Positions 18,994 through 26,654 of a stretch of DNA of 64,000 nucleotides are shown here, in pieces. Each line of letters starts with the position of its first letter. Position 1 is the first letter of the stretch. This stretch comes from Roseiflexus sp. Lineage in GTDB: Bacteria; Chloroflexota; Chloroflexia; Chloroflexales; Roseiflexaceae. The stretch lies in NCBI GenBank assembly GCA_025062325.1, contig JANXAL010000022.1, positions 1 to 64,000 on the forward strand, given 5' to 3'. The notes beneath the pieces are model-generated. The model was given only the letters and a program-made list of their open reading frames with translations, had not been told where the DNA came from and ran no database searches. Made by a program: the position numbers and the translations under genes.

Positions 18994-19019
18994 GGGCGAC
19001 CCACCGGGTCGCCCTCACA
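18989..19019. terminator. Perfect 14-bp hairpin, likely bidirectional terminator
   Basis: Arms TGTGAGGGCGACCC and GGGTCGCCCTCACA enclose a 3-nt loop. It lies between the convergent rpoC and the gene at 19015, whose stop codon is inside the right arm. Confidence 0.75.
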
Positions 19020-19560
19020 AGGTAATGCCTATCCGCGCTAGCACAGCAGTTGCCGCTCCATCGACCCGCATGAGCGCTAATCGCCGCTGCAGATAGGCGT
19101 AGTCGAGCGCCTGACGGCGCGCAATGGCTGTAGCATCGGCAATATCGTGCTTCCCTTCCTCCGGACCGCGCGCCAGCAGCGCTTTGTGCAACGCCACATC
19201 TTCTGGCGACAGCACTGGAACGAGCGATCCGAGCAGTGGAAGACGCCGCACACGACTGCGCATCTCAGCATCGAGCGTGAAGGGATAGATCGCCTGACCG
19301 CGCCGGATGGTCAGGTCATCAAAAATCTTGATGCCACGCCAAAGGATGCGCTGACCGTCGAACTGCACCACTTTCTGCTGCTGATTGAGCAAACGTACAA
19401 TCTCTAACAACTTGCCCGGCTCAACGAGGATGTCGATATCCTGAATTGGGCGACGATTGCCGTAGAGATGCGCTGCAGCGCCAGCGCAGACCGCCCACGC
19501 GAGATGATGTGCATCGAGGGTGCGCTGCACAACGCTGAGGTTGCCTGCGATGAGAGACAT
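19015..19560 (-). CDS. Nucleotidyltransferase-fold protein (AbiEii/DUF6036-like)
   Basis: A 181-residue protein with the opening of a polymerase-beta-type nucleotidyltransferase fold: CAGAAAHLYG at 26-35, then PIQDIDILV with Asp41 and Asp43 as the metal-binding pair. Related proteins include AbiEii-type toxins and many uncharacterised nucleotidyltransferases that recognise small molecules or RNA. No partner antitoxin or HTH gene is adjacent, so a toxin role is not supported. The middle (residues 60-110) is beta-rich and the C-terminal 60 residues are helical. The stop codon lies within the terminator shared with rpoC. It is the last gene of a minus-strand group with the GNAT and sirtuin genes, but a gap of about 100 bp separates it from them. 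Confidence 0.75.
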   Translation of the reverse strand: MSLIAGNLSVVQRTLDAHHLAWAVCAGAAAHLYGNRRPIQDIDILVEPGKLLEIVRLLNQQQKVVQFDGQRILWRGIKIFDDLTIRRGQAIYPFTLDAEMRSRVRRLPLLGSLVPVLSPEDVALHKALLARGPEEGKHDIADATAIARRQALDYAYLQRRLALMRVDGAATAVLARIGITL

Positions 19561-19659: not shown

Positions 19660-20277
19660 TCACCCATAGAGGCCAATGAGCGTGCGACGCCTGATCCATT
19701 CCTCGCGGTAGAGGCGCATTTCGAAGAACTCAACCTTCAGGCCGCGCGAGTCGTCGCGAAAATGGCGGCGCAATGGCGCGTAGGCCGGTTGATCGAGGAT
19801 ACGCCGATCAAATAGTGCGCCCGCAGTGCGCCAGTCGCTGCTGACATACTGAAAGCCAAGGCGGGTATAGCAGCGCACTGCACGAATATTTGGCGCTGCG
19901 ACATCGAGCACCATCAGGTGATACCTGAGCGTTCCAAAGTAGTAATCGAGAAACAGCGTGAGCGCTTCGGTACCCAACCCACGACCAACATAGGGCGCCG
20001 CAAACGTGACGCCGAGACGCGCCTGACCGCGCCGCTCGTCGATTTCACGGAGCGAGATGCGTCCGATCAGCGTACCGCTGCCATTCTCAACCGCCCAGCT
20101 TCGTCGAGAGACGCCATAGTCGCGCAATGCGTTCCACATTCCACTGCCGAATGACGATGGGCGAGGCAGATTCCATAGAGGATCGAACGGATCGTTATAT
20201 GGTGGCCACTCATCAGCCAGTTCATCATCGTGACTTTCCCATGGGCGAATAAGGACTCGCGGACCGCGCAACTCCAT
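19660..20277 (-). CDS. GNAT-family N-acetyltransferase (RimJ/RimL type)
   Basis: A 205-residue acetyltransferase. The GNAT core is seen as GTLIGRISLREID, then GVTFAAPYVGRGLGTEAL, the acetyl-CoA pyrophosphate-binding loop with GRGLGT, and PNIRAVRCYTRLGF, the conserved C-terminal motif. Such enzymes move an acetyl group from acetyl-CoA to an amine on proteins or small molecules; the substrate is unknown. The start at 20277 is preferred over an ATG at 20283 because an AGGAG site is 6 nt upstream of the former and touches the latter. It lies 21 bp after the first sirtuin gene in the same direction. A sirtuin beside an acetyltransferase suggests an acylation/deacylation pair, but that is inference. 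Confidence 0.88.
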   Translation of the reverse strand: MELRGPRVLIRPWESHDDELADEWPPYNDPFDPLWNLPRPSSFGSGMWNALRDYGVSRRSWAVENGSGTLIGRISLREIDERRGQARLGVTFAAPYVGRGLGTEALTLFLDYYFGTLRYHLMVLDVAAPNIRAVRCYTRLGFQYVSSDWRTAGALFDRRILDQPAYAPLRRHFRDDSRGLKVEFFEMRLYREEWIRRRTLIGLYG

Positions 20278-20298: not shown

Positions 20299-21078
20299 TC
20301 AGATCGCATCAACCTGCAACTCGTCTAGACCACCGACATTGCCGACGATCAACTGCACGAGTTCCGGCATAACCATGCCCGGGGTCGTATTGACGACGTA
20401 ATCTGCCATCAGGGTATAGACCGACTCATCGGGCGCGATAGTCATGACGAATGCGCCATGGCGACGCGCCACGAATGGGAACGACGCAACCGGTTCGATA
20501 GCGCCAACCGTGCCGACACAGAGGAAGACATCGCATTGTTCAACGACCTGCCGCGCACGGCGCAGCTCGTGGTGCGGCAATCCCTCGCCAAGCATAACGA
20601 CATCCGGTCGCAGCAGGCTGCCGCACTGCGCACAGCGCGGCGGGATTTCGCCATCATCGTCCCAGGCGAATGCAAGATGACCCGATTCGTAGCAGCGACA
20701 GCGGCGCAGGCTGCCGTTCAATTCAATGAGATCGCGTGAACCGGCCCGCCAGTGCAGCCCATCAATCGACTGCGTGATCAGGGTAAACTCTGGATAATAC
20801 TGTTCCAGATCAACGAGTGCATAGTGCGAGGCGCTGGGTTGCGCGCGCTCTGCCAGCGCACGCCGATAGGCATACCACTCCCACACCAACCGCGGGTTGC
20901 GCACGAATGCCTGCGGTGTCGCCAGTTCACTGACATCGTACTGCGCCCAGTGACCAGTATGCGCTTCACGAAACGACGGAATCCCGCTTTCCGCTGCCAC
21001 GCCGCCGCCGGTCAGCGCCACCACGCGCCGGGCTTGCAAGAGACGACGGATCACATCGTCAGGCAGTGTCAGAGGCAT
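20299..21078 (-). CDS. Sirtuin-like protein with degenerate active site
   Basis: A 259-residue Sir2-fold protein next to a canonical paralogue at 21128-21874. Normal sirtuins have GAG-x-S for NAD binding, TQN-x-D, and a catalytic His in the HG motif. Here these read TGGGVAAES (23-31), TQSID (102-106) and LNG, so catalytic His becomes Asn121 and the conserved Asn becomes Ser104. Cys-x-x-Cys (RCAQC) is kept, as is Tyr69-x-x-Arg72, typical of class III deacylases. NAD-dependent deacylation is therefore unlikely; a binding or regulatory role is plausible. The start at 21078 has GGAG 6 nt upstream. The AAC codon for Asn121 is seen directly in the sequence. Confidence 0.9.
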   Translation of the reverse strand: MPLTLPDDVIRRLLQARRVVALTGGGVAAESGIPSFREAHTGHWAQYDVSELATPQAFVRNPRLVWEWYAYRRALAERAQPSASHYALVDLEQYYPEFTLITQSIDGLHWRAGSRDLIELNGSLRRCRCYESGHLAFAWDDDGEIPPRCAQCGSLLRPDVVMLGEGLPHHELRRARQVVEQCDVFLCVGTVGAIEPVASFPFVARRHGAFVMTIAPDESVYTLMADYVVNTTPGMVMPELVQLIVGNVGGLDELQVDAI

Positions 21079-21127
21079 TGACATCTCCTTCTTGACCCAC
21101 CAGGGCAAAGAGCGTGGTCACGACTCA

Positions 21128-21874
21128 TCATGACGGCGCAGAACCGAAGGCAGCCATCATCAGTGCCGGAAGCAGTTGTCCTGACGGCGCATAGAGATGC
21201 AGATCCAGCAGACCTTCCAGCGCACCAGGAGCGATGTTGATCTCAACCGTATATGCGCCAGCAGACCGCGCAATCAAAGGGAGATCGGCAGCAGGACGCA
21301 CGACTCCCGATGTACCGATACAGAGGAAAAGTTCACACCGTTCAGCGGCCGCCACGGCGGTGCGCCAGGCTTGCGGCGGCAGCAGTTCGCCAAACCAGAC
21401 CACATCAGGTCGCACCAACCCACCGCACCGCGGACACTGCGGCGGCGCATCCTGAGGCGCAGTCGTCAATTCAACAGGCTCATCATCGTTAAAACAGCGA
21501 TAGCGGAATAGGTTGCCATGCAATTCTACCACGTTTTGACTTCCAGCGCGGTGGTGCAGACCATCGACGTTCTGGGTGATGAGCGTAAAATCTGCGACCC
21601 GGCGTTCCAGATCGGCGAGCGCTCTATGCCCCGGGTTAGGTGCTGCGGCCTCGACCAGTGCGCGGCGATAGGCATACCACTGCCACACGAGCGTTGGGTT
21701 GGTGCGGAATGCCTTGGGGGACGCCAGTTCTTCCGGATCATAGCGCGCCCACAAGCCGGTTTGCGCATCGCGGAAGGTTGGCACGCCGCTCTCAGCAGAA
21801 ACGCCAGCCCCCGTCAGAACTGCGACTCGTTGCGCAGTGCGTAAACGTTCGATGAGCGTATCGGGGATTTTCAT
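21128..21874 (-). CDS. NAD-dependent protein deacylase (sirtuin, class III-like)
   Basis: A 248-residue sirtuin with all catalytic motifs: TGAGVSAESG (21-30), TQNVD (100-104) and the catalytic His119 in ELHG. A C-terminal zinc pair reads CPRC. Tyr67-x-x-Arg70 (YAYR) matches the acidic-acyl pocket of E. coli CobB and SIRT5, which remove succinyl and malonyl groups from lysine. Sirtuins use NAD and release nicotinamide and acyl-ADP-ribose. It lies 49 bp upstream of the degenerate copy in the same direction, most simply a tandem duplication. In a cell that builds malonyl-CoA and succinyl-CoA for carbon fixation, a deacylase for these groups would be useful, but this is inference. Confidence 0.93.
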   Translation of the reverse strand: MKIPDTLIERLRTAQRVAVLTGAGVSAESGVPTFRDAQTGLWARYDPEELASPKAFRTNPTLVWQWYAYRRALVEAAAPNPGHRALADLERRVADFTLITQNVDGLHHRAGSQNVVELHGNLFRYRCFNDDEPVELTTAPQDAPPQCPRCGGLVRPDVVWFGELLPPQAWRTAVAAAERCELFLCIGTSGVVRPAADLPLIARSAGAYTVEINIAPGALEGLLDLHLYAPSGQLLPALMMAAFGSAPS

Positions 21875-21906: not shown

Positions 21907-23310
21907 TTACGGCTCTCCTTCGGATCGCACATACAATTGCGAGACCCAACCTTCGATCTGTCGCCCGTTGATTTCGCCGCGCACCCGTACCCAGGGAACG
22001 CCATCGACGATGCGCGGACCTTCGAGCTTCCGCACACGGGTTCCATTCGGCAGCAACGCGATCACACGGGTGTTCAGTCCCGGCGCGTCGCGGAGGTTCA
22101 AACCCTCGACATCACCAATGGTCACCGTCAGCACTTCGCCCGAACCGCCCGACACCCCGGTTAACCAGTCGGGTAAAGGAACATTCTCCGGTAACGGTAG
22201 CTGCAGACGCGGCAGGGAAATGTTCATTAACCCTTCGAGTACTAGACTCGTAAGGACATACGCTCCTAAACCTACCAGCATGAAGAGCGCTACCATAGCG
22301 ATAAGCGCTGCCAACGAACGCTGGCGTGTTCCGCGCATGACGCTCTGGTGATCGGCAGTCGTCGTTGGGCCAGATGACGGTGTCGCAGTGACTGGCTGTG
22401 GGTTAGGAGACGCCGCTTCCAGACGATTGATTGACGGCAACGATGTCTGGTGTCCTTGACTACTCGCAGCGGATGCACGCGGCGTCAGACGATCCGTGGC
22501 GGAATTGATAGCATGGCGCATGTCATCAAGCGCCTGGCGCAGCGACAAGGCATCAGGAAAACGGTGTGACGGATCGGGCGCTGTGGCGCACGCGATCACA
22601 CGCCCCAGCGACGGCAGGTAGATATGCGGGCGCACGCTGGTGAGGATGGGAAGAGCAGCATTTCGATGCGCCCGGAGTAGAGCATGCAGATCATCACCCT
22701 CAACTGCTCTGCACCCGGTCAGCATTTCGATCAACAACACGCCCAGCGAGTACACGACGCTTGCAGCGCCAGGAGGATGACCGGCGCTACGTTCTGGAGC
22801 ACGGTACCAAGCGATATCGGCGCCAAACTCCGCCGGCGTCATGCTCCAGTTTTCGACCAGTTTGACGCGTCCTTCGTCCACCACCATGATATGCGCGCTA
22901 CTGATTGGCGGATGTAGCGCCCCAGCCGCCTGACACGCCGCAACGGCGCCAACGATCTGGCGAAAGAACAGCAACGCCACTTCGACCGTCAGAGGTCCCA
23001 CGTCGCGCAGCGTCTTGCCCGACACGTATTCCGTCACCATGAACGGACGACCGGCAACTTCACCACTGTCATAGACATGCAACAGCGACGGATGCAGGCG
23101 ACGCGCGCCAGACTGCGCCTCGGCGACGAAACGGCTGCGCAGCGCTTCCTGAGAGACCAGCTCTTCACGGAACAGCGCCACCAGCATCGGGCGTTGCAGC
23201 CGCTCGTCGTATGCCCGGTAGATGACAGCGAGACGTGTCGCACCCAGCCGCTCTTCGATCCGGTAGCGGTCGTGCAGCAGAGGTGCGGCAGGCGCAGGAG
23301 ACTGAGCCAT
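21907..23310 (-). CDS. Membrane-anchored pseudokinase with extracytoplasmic SH3b domain
   Basis: A 467-residue protein. Residues 16-265 have the protein-kinase fold, including the RAPE segment (170-173), but the catalytic residues are lost: the ATP-binding Lys is Phe47, HRD is replaced by HPP (133-135) and DFG by ENW (153-155). A Ser/Thr/Pro linker leads to a single transmembrane helix (333-357) and an SH3b domain (393-462, VEGLNLRDAPGLNTRV and GWVSQLYV) that would sit outside the cytoplasm. PASTA/SH3b kinases sense wall fragments; here the kinase half can at best bind ligands or partners. The start at 23310 is chosen because the longer frame runs back over the opposite-strand zinc-transporter gene. 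It diverges from that operon. Confidence 0.9.
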   Translation of the reverse strand: MAQSPAPAAPLLHDRYRIEERLGATRLAVIYRAYDERLQRPMLVALFREELVSQEALRSRFVAEAQSGARRLHPSLLHVYDSGEVAGRPFMVTEYVSGKTLRDVGPLTVEVALLFFRQIVGAVAACQAAGALHPPISSAHIMVVDEGRVKLVENWSMTPAEFGADIAWYRAPERSAGHPPGAASVVYSLGVLLIEMLTGCRAVEGDDLHALLRAHRNAALPILTSVRPHIYLPSLGRVIACATAPDPSHRFPDALSLRQALDDMRHAINSATDRLTPRASAASSQGHQTSLPSINRLEAASPNPQPVTATPSSGPTTTADHQSVMRGTRQRSLAALIAMVALFMLVGLGAYVLTSLVLEGLMNISLPRLQLPLPENVPLPDWLTGVSGGSGEVLTVTIGDVEGLNLRDAPGLNTRVIALLPNGTRVRKLEGPRIVDGVPWVRVRGEINGRQIEGWVSQLYVRSEGEP

Positions 23311-23492: not shown

Positions 23493-23539
23493 TTACTGCT
23501 AGCCACAGGCATCTCATCTCCTTGCAGGAGGAGCTACGG

Positions 23540-25000
23540 ATGACCCATCGGATTCTTACTCTGGCGCTCACGGCAGTGCTCTTCCTGAGCGCCTGCGGCG
23601 ACATGCGGCCTGCGCCCGCCGGCGGCCCAACTCCATCGCCAGCAGCGCCTGTGCCAACCGCCGCGCCAGCGGCGCCGACGACTGCCCCAACCGCTTCACC
23701 GACGGCGCTGGCGCCAGCGATCAGGGTGCTGGCAACGCAGTCGTTCCTGGCAGACATTGCGCAGAATGTCGCAGGCGACCGGTTGACAGTCGAGGCGCTG
23801 ATTCCTCTTGGTGTTGATCCCCATATTTTCGAGCCAACACCCGCTGACGTGCGCAAGGTCGCTGACAGTGACGTGCTGATCGTCAATGGCGCCGGGTTTG
23901 AAGCGTTCCTCGAGCGACTGCTGGAGAACGCCAGCGGCGAGCGCCTGGTCATCGAAGCCTCGCAAGGGCTGACCAGCCGCACTGCACGTGAGGGCGAAAT
24001 CGCAGTGATGAGCCCTGAGGAACTGACCGATGTACTGTGTGTTGAGGCGGCAGACCTGTTCCTATCGGCGAAGGAGATCACCGCTGGCGCTGACCAGACA
24101 TCCGCTGTAGAACTCGTCGCGCACAAAGAGGAAGACCATGCCCATGATCACGATCACAGCGGCACGTTCTGGCAGGTGGCGTTGAACCGACAGGCAGATG
24201 GGACATATACCGGGTTCCTCAAGTGGAATGCTGAAGGTGGCGAAATCGCTGTCGCCGTGAGCGGCGGCGCACTCGCTATGACTAGCATCGAATCTGGTAA
24301 AGCAGTTGAGGCTGAAGAGACGCTGACGCTTGCCTGCTCCGGGCTGACGCGTGCGATGATTATGGATGTGGAGAAGGGGGAGTATCTCCTGGCACTGAGC
24401 GGGTTGCGCGAGCCAAAGGCGACGCTCATGATCACAATGCCCGGCGGTCACCATCACCACGACGAGGGCGATCCGCACTTCTGGCTTGACCCGACGAAGG
24501 TTGTCACATATGTCGCCAATATCCGCGACGGGCTGATGCGCGTCGATCCCGCTGGCGCTGAGGTGTATCGCACGAACGCTGAGCGGTACATCGCGCAGCT
24601 CAACGAACTGGATCGCTTTATTGCCGCGGAGGTCGCAAAGATCCCCGAAGCCAATCGTAAACTGGTCACGAACCACGAGAGCTTCGGCTATTTCGCCGAC
24701 CGCTACGGCTTCCGCATTATTGGCACAATTGTGCCAAGCGTCAGCACTGGCGCATCGCCGTCGGCGCAGCAACTGGCGCGACTGATCGAGCGCGTGCGCG
24801 AAGCCGCGGTGAAGGTGATTTTTCTGGAAACCGGCGCCAATCCGCAGCTTGCCGAACAACTGGCGCGCGAGACCGGGATCCGAGTGGTGTCCGATCTCTA
24901 CACACATTCGCTGTCTGATGCCAATGGACCCGCGCCGACATACCTCGATATGATGCGGTACAATGTTAAGCGAATTGTTGAGGCGTTGCAGCAGGGATGA
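23540..25000 (+). CDS. Zinc/manganese ABC transporter substrate-binding lipoprotein (ZnuA-like)
   Basis: A 486-residue cluster A-I (ZnuA/MntC) solute-binding protein. The signal peptide ends in the lipobox LSAC (Cys19), followed by a Pro/Thr/Ala-rich linker. The core keeps GVDPHIFEPTPADV (91-104), DPHFWLDP (311-318) and NHESFGYF with the metal-binding His/Asp/Glu. It delivers Zn or Mn to the permease. Unlike normal family members (about 300 residues), it has an inserted region at about 152-302: a His-rich HAHDHDH run, about 90 residues of beta-rich sequence, and a second His run (HHHH). The start at 23540 has AGGAGG upstream. It overlaps the ATPase gene by 4 bp (ATGA). Confidence 0.92.
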   Translation: MTHRILTLALTAVLFLSACGDMRPAPAGGPTPSPAAPVPTAAPAAPTTAPTASPTALAPAIRVLATQSFLADIAQNVAGDRLTVEALIPLGVDPHIFEPTPADVRKVADSDVLIVNGAGFEAFLERLLENASGERLVIEASQGLTSRTAREGEIAVMSPEELTDVLCVEAADLFLSAKEITAGADQTSAVELVAHKEEDHAHDHDHSGTFWQVALNRQADGTYTGFLKWNAEGGEIAVAVSGGALAMTSIESGKAVEAEETLTLACSGLTRAMIMDVEKGEYLLALSGLREPKATLMITMPGGHHHHDEGDPHFWLDPTKVVTYVANIRDGLMRVDPAGAEVYRTNAERYIAQLNELDRFIAAEVAKIPEANRKLVTNHESFGYFADRYGFRIIGTIVPSVSTGASPSAQQLARLIERVREAAVKVIFLETGANPQLAEQLARETGIRVVSDLYTHSLSDANGPAPTYLDMMRYNVKRIVEALQQG

Positions 25001-25815
25001 CACATTTCCAGCAGATCACAAACGAACCGGCGCATCTGGAGATCGAGCGCCTGACCGTCGCCTATGGACGACGACGGGTGCTCGATACTATTTCGTTTCG
25101 CGTGGAGTATGGCGAGCGCGTTGTGCTGGTCGGACCGAACGGCGCGGGGAAGTCGACGCTCTTTAAGGCGCTGGTTGGACTGGTGAAGCCGCAGAGCGGC
25201 ACCATTCGCATTCACGGATTGCCGCCTGGCGCGCACCGCGACTGCGTTGCATACGTACCGCAGCGCGAAGAGGTGGATTGGCGTTTTCCGGTTACCGTCG
25301 CCGATGTGGTCATGATGGGGCGTTTCGGGCGGCTTGGCTGGTTCCGTCGCCCCACCCGCGCTGATCGGATTGCCGTCGAACGTGGAATGGAATTGATGGG
25401 CATTGCCCATCTTGCACATCGCCCAATCGGTGAGTTGTCCGGCGGGCAGCAGCAGCGGGTGTTCCTGGCGCGCGCGCTGGCACAGGAACCGCATATTCTG
25501 CTCCTTGATGAGCCATTCACTGGTGTGGACGCAGCAACGCAGGAAGCGACGCTCAGCGTGCTCGATGCGCTCCGTGATCAACACGTCACGATCATCCTCT
25601 CGACGCACGACCTTGGCCTCGCAGCGGCGCACTTCGAGCGCGTGCTGCTCATCAACCGGCGACTGATTGGCGATGGTCCTCCGGCACGTGCGCTGCGCCG
25701 CGAACTGCTCACCGAGGCGTTCGGAGGGCAGGTGCTAACGTTGCCTGACGGCCTGGTGCTGGTCGATCAGTGCGCTTGCGACCATCCTGAAACAGAAAGT
25801 ATCGCTATCACATGA
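24997..25815 (+). CDS. Zinc/manganese ABC transporter ATP-binding protein (ZnuC-like)
   Basis: A 272-residue ABC ATPase. Walker A GPNGAGKST, signature LSGGQQQR, Walker B ILLLDEP and a switch His in STHD are all present. It powers import of the metal delivered by the upstream lipoprotein. The ATG overlaps the TGA of the previous gene (ATGA at 24997-25000), and its own TGA overlaps the ATG of the permease gene in the same way (25812-25815), so the three are translationally coupled. The C-terminal CDHPE tail is short and unremarkable. Confidence 0.94.
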   Translation: MTHFQQITNEPAHLEIERLTVAYGRRRVLDTISFRVEYGERVVLVGPNGAGKSTLFKALVGLVKPQSGTIRIHGLPPGAHRDCVAYVPQREEVDWRFPVTVADVVMMGRFGRLGWFRRPTRADRIAVERGMELMGIAHLAHRPIGELSGGQQQRVFLARALAQEPHILLLDEPFTGVDAATQEATLSVLDALRDQHVTIILSTHDLGLAAAHFERVLLINRRLIGDGPPARALRRELLTEAFGGQVLTLPDGLVLVDQCACDHPETESIAIT

Positions 25816-26654
25816 GCATCCTCTGGTCATGGATTATTGCGCCGCTCGAATATGGATTCATGCAGCGCGGCGTGCTGGCAGCAGCGCTGGTAGGCATCCT
25901 GTGCGCTATCATTGGATGTTATGTCGTATTGCGTTCGATGGCATTTCTTGGCGATGCGCTGGCGCACGCGGTATTGCCGGGCGTTGCTATCGCCTACCTG
26001 ATGGGAACGAATCTGACGGCCGGCGCGTTGGTCGCCGCTGTCGTCGTGGCGCTGCTAATCGGCGTTTTTTCTCGTCAGGGAGTAATCAAAGAGGATACCG
26101 CCATTGGCATCGTTTTCGCAGCGGCGCTGGCATTGGGAGTGGCACTGATCAGCAGTGTGCGCACCTACGCCGTTGACCTTACCCACATTATGTTCGGCAA
26201 TGTGCTGGGAGTCAGCCCGGCAGACCTCTGGCTGATTGTGGGAATTGGCGCCGCGGTCCTGCTGACCCTCCTGGCATTCTACCGTCAGTTTCTGGTGATT
26301 GCCTTCGATCCGGTGCTGGCAGCGACACAGCGCCTACCGGTCGAGCTGCTGCGGATGCTGCTCTTGCTCCTGATCGCGTTGACGATCGTTGTATCGTTGC
26401 AGACGGTTGGCGTGGGATTAGTAGCGGCTATGCTGGTGACGCCAGGCGCAACGGCATATCTGCTGACCCGGCGCCTGCCTGCAATGATGGCAGTTGCTGC
26501 ACTGATCGGCGCGCTTTCGAGCATTGCCGGACTGTACCTGAGTTATTATGTTAATATTGCGTCCGGCGCTGCAGTAGTGCTGGTTGCCACTGCGACCTTC
26601 ACGGTCGTCTTTCTCGTTGCACCGGGGCGTGGCATACTGTGGCGACAGGGTTAG
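25812..26654 (+). CDS. Zinc/manganese ABC transporter permease (ZnuB-like, ABC-3 family)
   Basis: A 280-residue membrane protein with eight or nine hydrophobic helices. The region LRSMAFLGDALAHAVLPG is the conserved early block of ABC-3 permeases, and GLVAAMLVTPGATAYLLT is the later conserved loop. It forms the channel through which the metal crosses the membrane, paired with the upstream ATPase. The start overlaps the ATPase stop by 4 bases. The 3' end is followed within 7 bp by a dispersed repeat in the minus orientation. Confidence 0.95.
   Translation: MSILWSWIIAPLEYGFMQRGVLAAALVGILCAIIGCYVVLRSMAFLGDALAHAVLPGVAIAYLMGTNLTAGALVAAVVVALLIGVFSRQGVIKEDTAIGIVFAAALALGVALISSVRTYAVDLTHIMFGNVLGVSPADLWLIVGIGAAVLLTLLAFYRQFLVIAFDPVLAATQRLPVELLRMLLLLLIALTIVVSLQTVGVGLVAAMLVTPGATAYLLTRRLPAMMAVAALIGALSSIAGLYLSYYVNIASGAAVVLVATATFTVVFLVAPGRGILWRQG

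Follow-up and report, generated by a model that had tools for sequence, protein, structure and literature searches.

Pseudoenzymes, pseudokinases among them, have been the subject of much study. Among sirtuins, the closest described systems are the NAD-dependent deacylases of the CobB, Sir2-Af1 and SIRT5 type; the class M sirtuins (SirTM), which are ADP-ribosyltransferases linked to macrodomain and lipoylation genes (PMC4518038); and the human paralogues FAM118A and FAM118B, which resemble ThsA-type sirtuins and both keep and need the catalytic His and Asn (PMC12700824). The literature searched yielded no sirtuin lineage in which both catalytic residues have been lost family-wide under tight selection; the term "pseudosirtuin" was absent from it, sirtuin in combination with Roseiflexus gave nothing relevant, and a review of bacterial pseudokinases mentions neither Chloroflexi nor sirtuins. 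As far as that literature shows, a natural, family-wide pseudosirtuin of the sort presented here appears to be new.

The window, a stretch of 64,000 nucleotides from contig JANXAL010000022.1 of Roseiflexus sp., holds two sirtuin genes side by side, embedded in a run of five co-directional genes (see the table below). An initial annotation had described an upstream sirtuin (here A) with all motifs and a full-length downstream copy (here B) with His changed to Asn121, TQN to TQS and GAG to GGG; both genes are present with these motifs, and B ends where it had been placed. The motifs of A are complete (TGAGVSAESG, ITQNVDGLH, VELHGN), those of B altered (TGGGVAAESG, ITQSIDGLH, IELNGS), and B carries losses beyond those first recognized, namely S28A, GTS to GTV (GEI in relatives), IN to IA and W162M. 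The start of B is likely the ATG at 21078, with AAGGAG six bases upstream and relatives aligning there, and residue number 121 for its Asn holds with this start. Against a Pfam SIR2 cut-off of 24 bits both proteins are clear members, the match of B covering 180/180 positions of the domain; B falls below the NCBIfam cut-offs for CobB (226.9 against 320 bits) and PRK00481 (232.2 against 243 bits), and A fails the CobB cut-off and passes only PRK00481.1-3. Gaps of 32, 49, 21 and 99 bases separate the genes in the order pseudokinase, A, B, GNAT and nucleotidyltransferase-like gene, which is consistent with a single transcription unit. In Roseiflexus the pseudokinase is adjoined by a divergent zinc-uptake-type (ZnuA/ABC) cluster (23522-26654 (+)), and elsewhere in the same genome a third sirtuin is encoded, distant from both and with its catalytic motifs complete (L002, contig C11, 20013-20720).

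Features of the sirtuin locus, in coordinates of the window
Feature	Position	Strand	Basis or remarks
Nucleotidyltransferase-like gene, closes the gene run	19015..19560	(-)	Pfam NTP_transf_5, 31.4 bits against a threshold of 31.2 bits
GNAT acetyltransferase (Acetyltransf_3)	19660..20277	(-)	Pfam; 21 bp behind B
Sirtuin B (pseudosirtuin; "downstream copy")	20299..21078	(-)	259 aa; Pfam SIR2, 145 bits
Asn121 codon (AAC) in B, replaces catalytic His	20716..20718	(-)	sequence
Ser104 codon in B, replaces catalytic Asn of TQN	20767..20769	(-)	sequence
Sirtuin A, canonical, CobB-like, separate lineage	21128..21874	(-)	248 aa; Pfam SIR2, 188 bits; all motifs
Pseudokinase (Pfam Pkinase + SH3_3)	21907..23310	(-)	kinase-like domain without the Lys, HRD and DFG residues

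The family comprises 26 genomes, and searches of relatives recovered an orthologue of B in 25 of them, spread over nine genera; the single genome without a detected copy is a draft in 3840 contigs. Each of the 25 orthologues, one of them in a single-contig genome, carries Asn where the His should be and Ser, Thr or Ala in place of the TQN Asn; the catalytic His and the TQN Asn are both present in 36/36 comparison sirtuins. The other sirtuins compared, among them A, the non-operon sirtuins of the order and some from other phyla, keep the His, the sole exception being an operon sirtuin of another family (genus g28, see below); from outside the order the comparison covered only some dozens of sequences, all with His. 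A DNA pattern for ELNG, applied across the phylum, was discarded as a survey tool, being far too loose, with chance matches as common as signal.

The frame of B is open in all family orthologues, and the B proteins of named relatives are 89-96% identical to it. Over six genomes of Roseiflexus and the genus next to it, pairwise dN/dS (Nei-Gojobori) spans 0.044-0.063 in B, 0.059-0.113 in A, 0.059-0.144 in the GNAT gene, 0.061-0.100 in the nucleotidyltransferase-like gene and 0.147-0.254 in the kinase-like gene, values that are rough for the farther pairs (dS > 1), with near pairs giving the same picture; B is thus the most constrained gene of the operon. With Asn in every family orthologue and purifying selection this strong, the changes in B are more than chance. 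The earlier view that B is maintained rather than decaying is strongly supported; Asn is conserved among homologues, and a recent, strain-specific mutation, which had been named as the finding that would speak against that view, is contradicted by its fixation in nine genera. B is a pseudoenzyme in the usual sense, its catalytic residues gone from a whole lineage under purifying selection.

Setting 16 B proteins against 36 sirtuins of the active type, taken from the order and its surroundings, showed where the losses fall. Of 82 positions conserved in the active-type proteins, 16 are lost in B, including A25, S28, T35, N104, H121, W162, T190, S191 and N215 (active-type residues, B numbering); B has G25, S104, V191 and A215 at such sites, which are lost or variable across the family. 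Eight of 16 NAD-motif positions are lost against eight of 66 others (Fisher p = 0.002, a value that depends on a list of NAD-site positions taken from general knowledge of sirtuin structures and not from computed coordinates), and none of the seven acyl/peptide positions. On the phosphate side, T190 is Glu in half of the family; the GTS loop gains a Glu in many orthologues, the Asn of IN is gone in most, and genus g8 has Leu and Ala at positions 103/104. Tyr69 and Arg72, the pair that holds acidic acyl groups in SIRT5 and CobB, are kept in 16/16; V160, V161, G164, E165 and fold residues are likewise kept; the NAD-fold residues Gly24, Gly26, Phe36, Asp106 and Gly189 persist, Gln103 and Arg37 are kept in 12/16, and Phe202 and Arg206 are examples of residues that have become newly invariant in B. 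Catalysis and normal NAD binding have presumably been lost, and the initial claim that B is catalytically dead stands to the extent that residue losses read from sequence can carry it; residual binding of NAD or ADP-ribose is possible, given the NAD-fold residues that remain.

An AlphaFold model of B has a normal sirtuin fold (pLDDT 88.9), with Sir2-Af1 as the best PDB match (Foldseek TM 0.84, about 43% identity) and SIRT5 also among the matches. The match list holds two SIRT5 entries that, by their titles, are the Q140L and N141V mutants with a succinylated peptide (PDB 8z56 and 8z58). Q140 and N141 are the TQN positions equivalent to Gln103 and Ser104 of B, and crystallisation of these mutants with peptide suggests, as far as the titles tell, that such a site can lose its TQN residues and still hold an acyl peptide.

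Across the order the operon runs membrane pseudokinase, sirtuin, GNAT acetyltransferase and nucleotidyltransferase-like gene. A GNAT stands behind B in 24 of the 24 family genomes whose contigs permit the test, with a DUF402 gene between the two in genera g2, g4, g7 and g9 (e.g., L060 3031-3573 (-), L062, L132 and L141); its acetyl-CoA loop is intact (YVGRGLGTEAL), and the nucleotidyltransferase-like gene follows it in many relatives. The link between B and the GNAT persists in genomes that lack A and have no pseudokinase next to B: in g2 and g7 the pseudokinase is encoded at another place in the genome and B and the GNAT stay joined, which makes theirs the tightest link in the family. In families f2 and f3 of the order the sirtuin remains next to the pseudokinase, but no GNAT was found linked to it; several genera of family f4 have the pseudokinase, GNAT and nucleotidyltransferase-like genes together without a sirtuin.

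Nearly all genomes of the order have an orthologue of the pseudokinase, complete copies scoring above about 180 bits and generic kinases below 143. All the kinase-like orthologues examined have PPISS or a similar sequence for the HRD loop, other residues in place of DFG and no VAIK Lys, so by sequence the protein is a pseudokinase; it has a transmembrane-like stretch (judged by eye) and a C-terminal bacterial SH3 domain. Membrane pseudokinases with SH3 occur across four families of the order (L054-L062, L123-L142, L170-L180 and L198-L209). An AlphaFold model built from five sequences was poor (pLDDT 48.9) and was left out of the conclusions. A defence system as the identity of the operon is rejected on the PADLOC results, in which the sirtuins have no match and the pseudokinase matches generic kinase models only.

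Outside the family, the same operon position holds sirtuins in various states. Family f2 and most of f4 have intact sirtuins there. In f3 the operon sirtuin is half-degenerate (GGG, TQA and a lost zinc Cys, with the His kept), and at L074 440-1977 (-), L077 and L070 a degenerate and a canonical sirtuin lie side by side in the order opposite to that of Roseiflexus, which suggests a second recruitment of a canonical sirtuin beside a degenerate one. The operon sirtuin of f4 genus g26 has TQT and keeps the His; half-degenerate f4 copies were observed at L175 3664-4578 (-), L139 and L176, with TQT (g26) or with TGTGVARESG and the His kept (g20). In g28 (L178 3417-4199 (-)) the operon sirtuin has both His to Asn and TQN to TQT. 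The His-to-Asn state needs two changes on the tree, a single change being found in only 4% of bootstrap trees, and a second independent loss in g28 is likely but not certain. The range of states at this single position of the operon, from intact through half-degenerate to dead and, probably, dead a second time, offers a natural test bed for the passage from enzyme to binding protein.

The explanation we favour, tentatively and as plausible rather than probable, is that B is a natural pseudosirtuin serving the adjacent GNAT as an adaptor that binds acyl-lysine or peptides independently of NAD. On this reading B retains the fold of a sirtuin and the cleft for acyl-lysine or peptide, with its NAD site dismantled (His121 to Asn, Asn104 to Ser/Thr/Ala, Ala25 to Gly, Ser28 to Ala, GTS to GTV/GEI and Asn215 to Ala), so that B should not remove acyl groups and would most likely bind lysine peptides, whether acylated or unmodified, with no NAD consumed. 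It could then act as adaptor or reader for the GNAT encoded right behind it, with the membrane pseudokinase probably supplying a signal or anchor and an active sirtuin, A, having joined the operon in some genera. In favour are the NAD-site losses set against the kept acyl positions, the low dN/dS, the 24/24 GNAT linkage and the genomes in which B is the only sirtuin; partnership with the GNAT and pseudokinase, like acyl-peptide binding, is our hypothesis. Against it stand the kept NAD-fold residues, the possibility that the Tyr69/Arg72 pair is kept for folding, and families f2 and f3 with no GNAT linkage. A more committed form, in which B is a reader of succinyl- or acetyl-lysine that recruits or gates the GNAT under the pseudokinase, is doubtful as it stands; if true, two parts of one pathway would be former enzymes, and any binding of acyl-lysine without NAD would make B a bacterial reader of protein acylation.

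The initial annotation had proposed that B regulates or decoys the active copy, for instance within a heteromer. A and B lie next to each other in the same orientation in every one of the six Roseiflexus genomes and in one further genus, the f3 pair in opposite order hints that such pairing may have arisen twice, and FAM118A and FAM118B show that sirtuin paralogues can depend on one another, although both of these need intact active sites and that of B is not intact (PMC12700824). In a maximum-likelihood tree, the sirtuins directly at the operon position form one clade (98/98) with the B family inside it (100/99), and A belongs to a separate clade outside it (100/100), as does the canonical second sirtuin of f3 to the outside. 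A and B are hence not recent duplicates of each other, and recent tandem duplication as the source of the pair is ruled out: B is the ancestral sirtuin of the order-wide operon, which A has joined in Roseiflexus and one more genus, most genera having no A at the locus. Moreover, in 15 genomes from four genera, nine of these genomes at least 90% complete, no protein other than B matches SIR2, so regulation of an active sirtuin cannot be its sole purpose. Regulation of A as the general function of B is thus unlikely and does not hold up, though B could play such a role within the two genera where A adjoins it.

It is similarly improbable that B has a structural role alone in a complex of GNAT and pseudokinase, its acyl pocket having no ligand role. 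The operon linkage to both partners would fit, as would the strong constraint that extends along the entire protein and has made residues such as Phe202 and Arg206 newly invariant; against this, none of the seven conserved acyl/peptide residues has been lost, whereas half of those in the NAD motifs are gone. Distinctly less probable is other NAD chemistry, such as ADP-ribosyl transfer in the manner of SirTM without the catalytic His. SirTM proteins with Gln in place of this His are still ADP-ribosyltransferases, and the B site likewise holds an amide side chain, with Asp106 and part of the NAD fold kept; but SirTM requires its Asn118, change of which nearly abolished activity (PMC4518038), and the Ser, Thr or Ala of B at the equivalent position makes such transfer less likely, as do the acquired Glu in the GTS loop, the lost Asn of IN and an operon with no macrodomain or lipoate-type partner. 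Decay of B into a pseudogene, or a recent mutation confined to one strain, for which the lost catalytic residues might speak, is scarcely credible given a dN/dS of about 0.05, open frames in all family orthologues and fixation in nine genera.

Set beside the known systems, B shares with deacylases of the CobB, Sir2-Af1 and SIRT5 type the fold, the Tyr-x-x-Arg pair, the zinc-site Cys and the peptide-clamp motif; unlike them, its family has neither the catalytic His nor the TQN Asn nor the NAD loop motifs. The SIRT5 Q140L and N141V proteins resemble B in their changes at the TQN positions, with peptide still bound, and differ from it in being laboratory mutants whose His, judging by the entry titles, is unmutated, whereas B is natural and has its His replaced. 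SirTM likewise has an amide residue for the catalytic His, and deacylase activity is expected of neither; SirTM keeps the essential Asn with HG changed to QG, whereas B has NG and Ser, Thr or Ala for that Asn, and it is linked to macrodomains, whereas the neighbours of B are a pseudokinase, a GNAT and a nucleotidyltransferase-like gene. FAM118A and FAM118B, like A and B, are two sirtuin paralogues of one organism whose partnership may matter, but their catalytic residues are intact, whereas B has lost its own and occurs without a partner in many genomes.
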